Shown: one piece after another, positions 57,028-59,619 of the stretch
Layout: each line of letters opens with the position of its first letter
How positions within the stretch are numbered: the stretch's first letter is position 1
Source: Brevibacillus agri
Lineage (GTDB): Bacteria > Bacillota > Bacilli > Brevibacillales > Brevibacillaceae
DNA length: 64,000 nucleotides
Assembly (NCBI RefSeq): GCF_004117055.1
Contig: NZ_CP026363.1
Location: 3,464,001 to 3,528,000 of the forward strand
Reading direction: 5' to 3'
Notes under the pieces: generated by a model
Told to the model about the DNA's origin: nothing
The model's database searches: none
The model's input: only the letters and a program-made list of their open reading frames with translations
Translations under genes and position numbers: made by a program

Positions 57028-57114
57028 GTGAAATTTCAGTCGCTGTTTGCGAAAATCCTAATTGGCTTGCTGATTCTCTCCCTCGTTGTGCCTACGTTTT
57101 TTTACTACCTGTAA
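57028..57114 (+). CDS. 28-residue single-pass membrane peptide
   Basis: GTG start behind a strong AAAGGAGG site (10-base spacing). Sequence: a basic N-terminus (KFQSLFAK) and one membrane helix (ILIGLLILSLVVP), ending FFYYL. It is followed after 17 bases by a strong terminator, which supports expression. No family recognised. Confidence 0.6.
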   Translation: MKFQSLFAKILIGLLILSLVVPTFFYYL

Positions 57115-57131: not shown

Positions 57132-57175
57132 AAAAACCCCCTGCCGCAGCCAACATGCTGCGCAGGGGGTTTTTC
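57132..57175. terminator. Bidirectional terminator
   Basis: AAAAACCCCCTGCCGCAGC and GCTGCGCAGGGGGTTTTT arms, with T runs on both strands. It serves the small plus-strand gene and the large secreted protein gene. Confidence 0.92.
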
Positions 57176-57201: not shown

Positions 57202-59346
57202 TTACTTGTAAACGAAGACGCTGGATGTCTTCGCATCCCAGCCTACTTTGTAGCCGAGGTTGTCGGTTACGGTGCGAACCGGGATCATTGGCATTCCATT
57301 TTTCAGCACGACAGGCGTAGGCAGGGTGATTTCCTGGTTGCCCACTCTTGCTTTGTTGGAGCCAACGGTGAACTTCATCACTTTTGTTCCACTGATGATC
57401 GCCACAGTGGAATTGTTCCATTGGGTGGTCAGCGCGAGCGCTTCCTTGAAGAATTGCGCTGGTACCATTGTCGTATTGCCGTTTGCGATATAAGGCGCTA
57501 CTTGCAATGGATAGGTTTTACCGTGCAAGGTGAAGTTCGCTGTATTCACCTTGAACAGCGCTGCATTCGTCGGCACGGTCACGGCTGGCTGTTGCGGCTG
57601 TGGTGTCGGCTGCGGCGCTGGTTGAGCCGGAGCTGGCATTCCGACGCCTACTGCGCGCGCAAACAGCAATCCTTTTTCTTCAGACGTAAAGACGCTGATG
57701 CTGTATGTGTTTTTCACAGCAGGGTTTACGATGTTGGCAGCAGCATTGATGCTGATGTTTGCCGCTGTCGCTGCCGGAATGTCTTGCGAAGGGTAAATCA
57801 GCACGTTTTGGCCGCGCACCGCTACGTAGTTGGCGGCTACGCCGTTCACGGTTACGTTTGCCGGAGCGATGTACGCCGGAACCTTGTAACCTGCCGGGAA
57901 CACAAGCTCCACGAAGTCGCGCTGCTTCACAAGTCCTACGCCGAGACCTTTGATCGCCACATTGACACCTGTCGGCTTGCCAAGCGCTGTCGAGGTCAGC
58001 GCGATGGTCGCTGTGCTGTTATTCACCGTGTTGTTCGGTGTTGGTGTCGGAGTAGGTGTTGGCGCCGGGTTCGGTGTCGGATTGACAACAGAACCGCCAA
58101 TCGTGAACGACTTGGACTCCAAAGTCCGGCCAGCGGCTGTCGCCTTCAAGGTGTAGCTGCCCGCTGTTTTCGGGTTGGTGATCCAGGCAGAGAAGGAAAC
58201 GACTACTTTTACTTCGCTGGTGGCAGAGAAGTTGGACGGAGCCGTAATGTACACCTTGTTGCCGGAAGCGCTGACTCGCTTGGCCGTTTTGCCGTTCAAG
58301 GTAAAATCAGAGGCAGACAGAATGCCTGGAACCATATCGGCAGACGGGAATTCCAGAACGAGCTCTTCGTCCGCTTTCAACTGTTTGCTGCCGAAGTCGG
58401 CGTCAAAGGTGTAGCTGGAACGCGCTCCCGCAGACGGGTCGGACAGGTTGACCGTAAAGCTGTTGGTCGCTGTGCTGGTGCTGGAACCGGATTTGGTGAT
58501 TTCGAACTGTTCAGATTCGTATGTAACACCATCGTATTTGACTTTGTACGTGTATTTGCTGCCAGCGCTAGGGTTTTCGATGCCAGCAGACTTGCTGAAT
58601 TCGAGGGTGATGTAATCATCGCCGGCAACGGAGCTTGGAACCTTGATTTCCACCTCGTCATCTTTTACGCTGACGGTTTTCACCGAGTAGCCGTTCAACT
58701 TGACATCGCCCGCGTCGATTTTGGACGGCAGCATGTCTTCATCCGGGAAAATGACGGTGATGTACTCGTTGGTTTCCAGCTCGTCGCTGCCTTTCAGCGA
58801 GATTTTGCCCAGCTTGACGCTTGTCGCTTCGCCCGCTGCCTTGCTGCTGAGCGATACGGAGTAGTCCTTGCTGGAGCTGGAACTGCTGGAGCTGCTTTTG
58901 ATCGTGACTTCGGTGGATTCTTCATCTTCATTGCTGGTTGAAACATATACATCATAGGTTCCCTTGTCTTCAGGGTTTGTGATTCCGTCTTCAATAGTGA
59001 ACGAAATTTTGTCGCCATCTTCAAAGTCTTCGTTCACGGTAATGATAACTTTTTTACCGCTTGCTTTCGCGCTTTTGATTTTGAAATCCGCATCTATATC
59101 ACTAGAACTGATATTTTTGCTCACGGTATATTCGGAGTCAAACTCAACCGTAATGGTATCTCCTTTGGATAGATCGTCTTCCAGCGTGAAGCTGATGTCG
59201 TAAGAGCTATCCTTGTCAGCCCCATCGTTGTCCGCTTTGACGGTCACTTTTTTCAAAGCATGGGCTTCTTTCGGTACAGCGACAAAAGGTGTAGCGGCCA
59301 GCGCTGATGCCAGCACTATTGGCAGTGCTTTTTTACTCTTCTTCAT
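57202..59346 (-). CDS. Large secreted protein: four beta-sandwich repeats plus copper amine oxidase N-like domain
   Basis: 714 residues. Signal peptide 1-30 (ending AHA). Then four diverged repeats of about 115-130 residues (roughly 32-150, 160-285, 293-418, 440-570), each with a D/E-x-V/I-x-V/L-F-P/D core, a D/N-x-N-G turn and an ITNP/IENP/IVNP element. A Ser run (about 151-159) follows repeat 1 and a Pro/Thr linker (NPTPNPAPTPTPTP) precedes repeat 4. The last about 115 residues resemble the copper amine oxidase N-terminal (stalk) domain common in Paenibacillaceae surface proteins. No sortase motif or SLH domain. ATG behind GGGAGG. Confidence 0.85.
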   Translation of the reverse strand: MKKSKKALPIVLASALAATPFVAVPKEAHALKKVTVKADNDGADKDSSYDISFTLEDDLSKGDTITVEFDSEYTVSKNISSSDIDADFKIKSAKASGKKVIITVNEDFEDGDKISFTIEDGITNPEDKGTYDVYVSTSNEDEESTEVTIKSSSSSSSSSKDYSVSLSSKAAGEATSVKLGKISLKGSDELETNEYITVIFPDEDMLPSKIDAGDVKLNGYSVKTVSVKDDEVEIKVPSSVAGDDYITLEFSKSAGIENPSAGSKYTYKVKYDGVTYESEQFEITKSGSSTSTATNSFTVNLSDPSAGARSSYTFDADFGSKQLKADEELVLEFPSADMVPGILSASDFTLNGKTAKRVSASGNKVYITAPSNFSATSEVKVVVSFSAWITNPKTAGSYTLKATAAGRTLESKSFTIGGSVVNPTPNPAPTPTPTPTPNNTVNNSTATIALTSTALGKPTGVNVAIKGLGVGLVKQRDFVELVFPAGYKVPAYIAPANVTVNGVAANYVAVRGQNVLIYPSQDIPAATAANISINAAANIVNPAVKNTYSISVFTSEEKGLLFARAVGVGMPAPAQPAPQPTPQPQQPAVTVPTNAALFKVNTANFTLHGKTYPLQVAPYIANGNTTMVPAQFFKEALALTTQWNNSTVAIISGTKVMKFTVGSNKARVGNQEITLPTPVVLKNGMPMIPVRTVTDNLGYKVGWDAKTSSVFVYK

Positions 59347-59562
59347 GTTTTTCCTCCCACATTTACCTATAATCTGGAAATCATTCTCTAGCAGGTCGCT
59401 ACCAGTCTACCATAAATGATATCTGGAGGGAATCTCTTCTATGGAAGATAAGAGACTCCTTGGCTACTATTGCTAAGACGCATTCACCCGCGAAAAAGTT
59501 ACATGTAAAAATCGTTCATCGGAAAATTTTTTTGCTGGCGAATGCCCCTCTCTTCGGCAGCC

Positions 59563-59592
59563 ATAAAAAAACCAGGCCGGACCCGACCTGGT
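59563..59592 (-). terminator. Terminator of the bkd operon
   Basis: ACCAGG and CCTGGT arms with a run of seven T on the minus strand, 27 bases after the bkdB stop. Confidence 0.85.
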
Positions 59593-59619
59593 TGGCGTTG
59601 CTCGCTTTTTGGCGAGCGA

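Follow-up and report, generated by a model that had tools for sequence, protein, structure and literature searches.

The window, a stretch of 64 000 nucleotides, covers positions 3464001–3528000 of a single-contig Brevibacillus agri genome of 5.37 Mb. Its minus strand carries a gene for a protein of 714 amino acids that consists of a signal peptide, four repeats (R1–R4) and a C-terminal tail. The features of the locus, in window coordinates and with the source of each, are listed below.

57137–57169: inverted repeat rich in GC, flanked on each side by a T-run (read from the sequence; not in the terminator scan list); probable shared terminator
57202–59346, minus strand: focal gene, ATG start, encoding a 714-residue secreted multi-domain protein
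57205–57555, minus strand: tail, residues 598–714, net charge +8, with PF07833 at 607–711 (Pfam)
57631–58035, minus strand: repeat R4, residues 438–572, net charge +4, conserved (hhalign, AlphaFold2 model)
58087–58470, minus strand: repeat R3, residues 293–420, net charge +1 (hhalign, AlphaFold2 model)
58483–58872, minus strand: repeat R2, residues 159–288, net charge −8 (hhalign, AlphaFold2 model)
58891–59253, minus strand: repeat R1, residues 32–152, net charge −16 (hhalign, AlphaFold2 model)
59254–59346, minus strand: signal peptide, residues about 1–31 (read from the sequence; low pLDDT in the model)
59404–59432, minus strand: second conserved upstream site, TTCCCT-N17-TAGACT, its second hexamer preceded by TG (not in the promoter scan list)
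59474–59503, minus strand: conserved promoter site resembling those of ECF sigma factors, TGTAAC-N17-CGTC and then TTA (upstream alignment)
59570–59593, minus strand: terminator-like stem-loop after the upstream bkdE2-type gene (terminator scan)

The gene is found between a bkdE2-type gene and a VOC epimerase gene in ten of 11 loci. These two flank it directly in seven, and extra genes intervene in loci L016, L017 and L119; the remaining locus, L015, has neither neighbour within its flanks. The terminator scan of the region returned nine terminator-like sites against 4.5 expected from shuffled sequences. Since the stem-loop at 59570–59593 follows the bkdE2-type gene, the focal gene is probably monocistronic. 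On the plus strand, at 57028–57114 and convergent with the focal gene, there is a hydrophobic open reading frame of 28 amino acids with an apparently strong ribosome-binding site, which is also present in L009/L019 and L020.

The N-terminus, read by its letters, has the signs of a signal peptide (MKKSKK, a hydrophobic stretch and AHA-L), in agreement with the initial annotation of the protein as secreted. That annotation had also stated that the usual surface anchors are missing, and this was confirmed: the Pfam scan up to E = 1 gave no SLH domain in the 714 residues, the sorting motif LPxT[GASN] is absent from them, and the protein has no cysteine and therefore no lipobox. Copper amine oxidase activity was rejected, the catalytic domain being missing from the Pfam results up to E = 1. 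A tandem repeat at the DNA level was rejected as the source of the protein repeats; the single one reported lies in a Pro-Thr linker.

Repeats and C-terminal domain

Profiles of the repeats, built from an alignment of 32 homologues and compared with hhalign, show that R1–R4 are mutually homologous, with E values from 2e-29 (R2–R3) to 1e-8 (R1–R4) and probabilities of 95.7–99.8. Against the tail, every repeat gives a probability of at most 2%. R2 and R3 are the closest pair, with 33.6% identity (BLASTP). The ITNP, IENP, ITNP and IVNP elements, together with the tyrosine that follows, line up across R1–R4, and this tyrosine is the sole invariant column of a 20-row repeat alignment. In the AlphaFold2 model of the whole protein (mean pLDDT 77.4, with 581 of 714 residues at or above 70), well predicted beta domains are joined by linkers of low confidence; the pTM is 0.30 and the arrangement of the domains is therefore not fixed by the model. 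The description of four diverged, homologous beta-sandwich repeats with shared ITNP/IENP/IVNP elements thus holds by both hhalign and AlphaFold2.

Structure comparison, which covered mainly residues 28–287 (the R1–R2 part), gave matches to YweA (Z 9.7, r.m.s.d. 3.3, 114 aligned), to ClfB over R1–R2 (Z 9.2, 216 aligned, with an r.m.s.d. of 18.7 across two domains) and to BslA (Z 9.1, r.m.s.d. 3.4, 117 aligned). Pilins, cohesins and transglutaminase domains rank just below these in Z, and Foldseek returned many multi-domain proteins, all at low TM-score. The predicted model supports the assignment of the repeats to beta-sandwich domains, and the comparison places the R1–R2 part in the Ig-like class in general, with no specific fold match. 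The hydrophobins BslA and YweA share the general Ig-like beta-sandwich fold with R1 (Z 9.1–9.7), but neither they nor the MSCRAMM adhesins have a specific sequence match to the protein, and their Z-scores are tied with those of unrelated Ig-like folds. Besides this fold, an exposed hydrophobic cap characterizes hydrophobins of the BslA type. No credible relatives were found in the PDB by sequence, either with the whole protein or with the profile. The best phmmer matches there, to ribosomal protein L6 over R4 at E = 0.013–0.026, were taken as chance.

The repeats had been described as a family that was not recognized, and for the focal protein this is borne out: Pfam and NCBIfam up to E = 1 gave only weak sub-threshold matches and nothing credible. 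DUF2808 (PF10989), in particular, was not matched by the focal protein up to E = 1. A DUF2808 match at E up to 1 occurs in 20 of 28 homologues, however, and when eight homologues were scanned separately R1 passed the cut-off of 25.3 bits in four, with 40.5 bits for a paralogue (P0001), 32.0 for L017, 27.8 for L038 and 25.4 for L030. This suggests, rather than proves, membership of the repeats in a broader DUF2808-like group. The likeness lies in R1 of certain relatives, which scores above the Pfam cut-off; the difference is that the focal protein consists of four repeats and a tail and is itself without a match. DUF2808, reached through R1 of the relatives, is of unknown function according to its Pfam description. 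A link through DUF2808 to the cyanobacterial zinc protein ZepA was rejected; in the available text of the source, DUF2808 is mentioned solely in connection with a different exoprotein, All7597 (PMC10957091). Searches over open-licence PMC papers did not find the family in print.

The tail was correctly anticipated as a stalk-type, copper-amine-oxidase-like domain: it matches Cu_amine_oxidN1 (PF07833) with E = 3.7e-33 and 114.1 bits, against a cut-off of 24.2. The same domain is matched in 26 of 28 homologues, the other two being short copies in L017 that stop before the tail. According to AlphaFold2 and hhalign each half of the tail is a strand-helix-strand unit, both in one chain, and the halves are internally similar (probability 88.9, E = 2.4e-6, from shallow profiles). 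When the tail was modelled by itself, the fold prediction was too poor for use (pLDDT 45.7).

In the available text on the Paenibacillus lautus SOD (PaSOD; PDB 8IMD), the N-terminal domain assigned to PF07833 is a dimerization domain: two chains, each contributing seven strands and a single helix, pair as a homodimer (PMC10432803). It is the one PF07833-assigned domain with a solved structure that came to light in our searches. PaSOD resembles our protein in its PF07833 family and in being a predicted secreted protein of related Gram-positive bacteria. As far as that text goes, its domain is joined to SOD and spans Asn50–Leu124 (PMC10432803), a stretch short of the 108 positions of the Pfam model, whereas the focal protein has a full-length PF07833 match placed C-terminal to four Ig-like repeats. 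By sequence, 8IMD is matched without significance (E = 0.73) and ranks behind two lectins with E = 0.28–0.29. Two tail halves are present in one chain, and therefore pairing of the PaSOD type could be met within one chain; by this analogy the tail could be an internal pseudo-dimer. PF07833 is also shown in the figure key of domain architectures in the part of PMC3901451 that was available.

Seven other PF07833-type matches occur in the genome, and five were scanned for companion domains; of the remaining two, one is an exact duplicate located where the ends of the contig overlap and one is without a locus. Three of the five carry glycosidase or wall-hydrolase domains (Amidase_3 with AMIN, Peptidase_M23 with LysM, and GHL10) and two consist of PF07833 alone. 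In this genome PF07833 occurs in several secreted proteins, where its role may be wall association or dimerization. We know of no proof that it binds walls, and found none. The focal protein may carry its own module for non-covalent association with the wall.

The two ends of the contig (G000:C1) overlap, 1 to about 43900 corresponding to about 5329450–5374818 with 99.7–99.9% identity where tested, at both ends of the overlap; the two stretches differ by about 1.5 kb in length. We regard the overlap as assembly redundancy; genes there are therefore counted twice, as for the PF07833 amidase, where L004 and L005 are the same.

Distribution and polarity of the family

We searched 60 genomes, the window's own included, comprising 36 of the same family and 24 others. 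Full-length or nearly full-length matches were present in all 36 genomes of the Brevibacillus family, the nearest named relative found being Brevibacillus gelatini (L009) with 90% protein identity. Among the 24 others, 11 had matches and 13 had none, and the matches listed are in the tail region. A profile of the repeats alone, at E up to 1e-5, found 20 of 398 genomes of the phylum with the window's own included (19 of 397 others). From these, 19 distant loci were taken; the repeat scan found all again but L097. Nine distant loci have at least three repeats, partial ones counted, and in five of these nine Pfam confirmed PF07833 after the repeats. The arrangement of repeats followed by PF07833 is, as judged from these sequences, wider than Brevibacillus, and the repeat family, which is uncurated, occurs in more than one lineage of the phylum, several in all. 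Like the focal protein, L085, L086, L088, L093 and L095, from other Firmicutes genera, have three to five repeat copies and then PF07833, but they lack the acidic-to-basic polarity described below and have different neighbourhoods. A C-terminal SH3_3 domain is present in L093 and L095 and also in L114 and L115.

In L017 (3868–9193) there are three tandem copies of the gene, two of them without R4 and tail, so R1–R3 can exist as a unit. What is apparently the same genome holds another related copy with an internal TAG (G031:C33:170317–171585).

Both conservation and charge change along the chain. For R1, R2, R3, R4 and the tail, in that order, the mean pairwise identity is 0.49, 0.56, 0.61, 0.72 and 0.73, and the mean net charge is −25.2, −12.2, +0.4, +3.6 and +7.0. 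An acidic R1 goes with a basic R4 and a basic tail in all 31 full-length homologues, a set that includes the focal protein and leaves out the paralogue. The latter (47%; L002 1471–3495, at about 426500–428500 of G000:C1), which has the same four repeats and tail, shows the same polarity (−10, −2, +1, +2, +10). Six more distant homologues checked do not. We read the polarity as a possible basic, envelope-bound base and an exposed acidic tip.

Upstream sites

ECF promoters have the elements TGTAAC and CGTC with a spacing of 16–17 nucleotides. At 59474–59503 the aligned upstream regions read TGTAACTTTTT-N12-CGTCTTA, and TGTAAC with CGTC presumably fits promoters of the SigX or SigM type; our literature searches found nothing on the ECF promoter consensus. 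Of the 31 upstream regions, 25 have the strict pattern TGTAAC-N16/18-CGTC and 27 a looser one, leaving four without the site. It lies mostly 148–159 bases before the start codon, and at 186 and 192 in two copies of L017. None of 200 mononucleotide-shuffled sets gave the pattern (only base counts were kept, and the related regions are not independent). The T-rich form of the site has only two occurrences in the 5.37 Mb genome. The other one, at L050 4819–4848, is about 110 bases before a gene that, judged by eye, is oligoendopeptidase-like.

The genome has 26 matches to ECF-type sigma factors above the family cut-off, and the responsible gene was not found among them. We looked in 30 loci, the 26 over the cut-off among them, for an ECF sigma gene that has this promoter and so regulates itself, and the three loose-pattern hits were not convincing: in L071 the site precedes the sigma gene but reads CGTAT instead of CGTC, and in L076 and L083 it does not precede the sigma gene.

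Nearer the gene than the ECF-like site, TATGGTA[AG][AT]CT occurs in 19 of 31 upstream regions. We take the corresponding site at 59404–59432 to be a possible SigA promoter of the extended −10 type. An upstream RNA element or riboswitch was rejected, as the only Rfam match was sub-threshold, on the other strand and within the focal gene.

Proposed role and alternatives

We put the chances at about even that the focal protein is a wall-associated rod, with its basic C-terminal half as the base and its acidic domains pointing outwards, and partly under envelope-stress control. The signal peptide suggests export by the Sec route, after which the four Ig-like beta-sandwich domains would form an elongated chain. 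The conserved basic R4 and the PF07833 tail would provide a non-covalent hold on the anionic cell wall, and the variable acidic R1–R2, facing outwards, would contribute negative charge, or else bind cations or a partner. Transcription would depend in part on an ECF sigma factor of the envelope-stress type and in part, probably, on SigA. Wall binding, orientation, sigma control and function are inferred; the observations in favour of the reading are the PF07833 tail, the wall-enzyme companions of this domain, the gradient of charge and identity, the conserved ECF-like site and the terminator-like hairpins that flank the gene. The reading of a wall-associated rod is weakened by the lack of polarity in the six distant homologues and by the dimerization described for the PF07833-assigned PaSOD domain in the available text (PMC10432803), and its sigma part by the four of 31 regions without the ECF-like site and by the lack of a sigma gene pinned down among the 26.

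A bolder form of the wall-associated rod is a charged bristle, an ECF-driven stress coat in which PF07833 and R4 form a new non-covalent wall anchor beneath an acidic tip, with a sister copy on the spore; we consider this quite unlikely. If true, an acidic Ig-like tip would set surface charge or bind cations. The family offers a clean test case for PF07833, being present in 36 of 36 family genomes searched, without a catalytic domain, with a measurable polarity and with a probable stress promoter. The novelty is modest: the repeat is uncurated but the tail is known, the promoter is probably one for stress and the polarity is consistent. We see the focal protein as a poorly described surface protein common to the family, not as a system of a new kind.

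The initial annotation had drawn from the missing classical anchor the idea of a free fibre, and the protein could assemble in the medium into a fibre or polymer, its repeats stacking from one molecule to the next. The lack of SLH, LPxTG and lipobox speaks for this, as does the homodimeric PF07833-assigned domain of PaSOD in the text available (PMC10432803). It loses support because the domains that accompany PF07833 suggest the wall, and the tandem tail halves could pair within one chain; we regard a free fibre as improbable, and less likely than the wall-associated rod. The chance of an adhesin of the MSCRAMM or pilin type, its Ig-like domains binding a host, fungal or surface ligand, appears slight. 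R1–R2 do align with ClfB, FnBPA, EbpB and similar Ig-like adhesin domains, and MSCRAMM adhesins have paired Ig-like domains, but the Z-scores are tied: among the rows listed, at Z 7.8–9.7, BslA, transglutaminase, integrin and cohesin also occur within about 2. The LPxTG-type signal of the sortase-anchored MSCRAMM adhesins is, moreover, missing from our protein. It is also unlikely, if somewhat less so, that the protein is spore-linked, the family working in spore construction or germination, with the window gene as a vegetative or stress copy or as one that acts late in sporulation. In support of such a link, we note that the paralogue lies directly upstream of yabP–yabQ, an order seen in all four genomes examined (yabP 104.9 bits, cut-off 75.4; yabQ 82.1 bits, cut-off 32). 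Farther upstream of the paralogue lie spoVT and a SpoVB-like gene. In addition, SleB-like and YpeB-like genes adjoin the homologue in two of nine distant neighbourhoods, L114 (5085–9060) and L115 (2001–7505), whose homologues have the repeats, PF07833 and SH3_3; L115 also has SpoVT, and its Pfam Hydrolase_2 and YPEB_N matches pass. Against this, the NCBIfam cut-off is missed by the SpoVB-like gene, by both SleB-like genes and by one of the two YpeB-like genes, and inspection by eye of the other seven neighbourhoods, some cut by contig ends, turned up neither a SleB-like nor a YpeB-like gene. Among these seven, some contain genes resembling polysaccharide genes. The window gene itself stands between the bkdE2 and VOC epimerase genes and not among spore genes, and no sporulation-sigma promoter was recognized upstream of it by eye. 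Some members of the family may have a role in the spore.

L111, L112 and L122 hold five-repeat homologues beside genes that by eye resemble those of polysaccharide synthesis (a sugar transferase, a chain-length regulator and an O-antigen-ligase-like gene). The start codon of the paralogue may be TTG, and a GTTAC-N6-GTAAC dyad lies upstream of it in all four aligned genomes.
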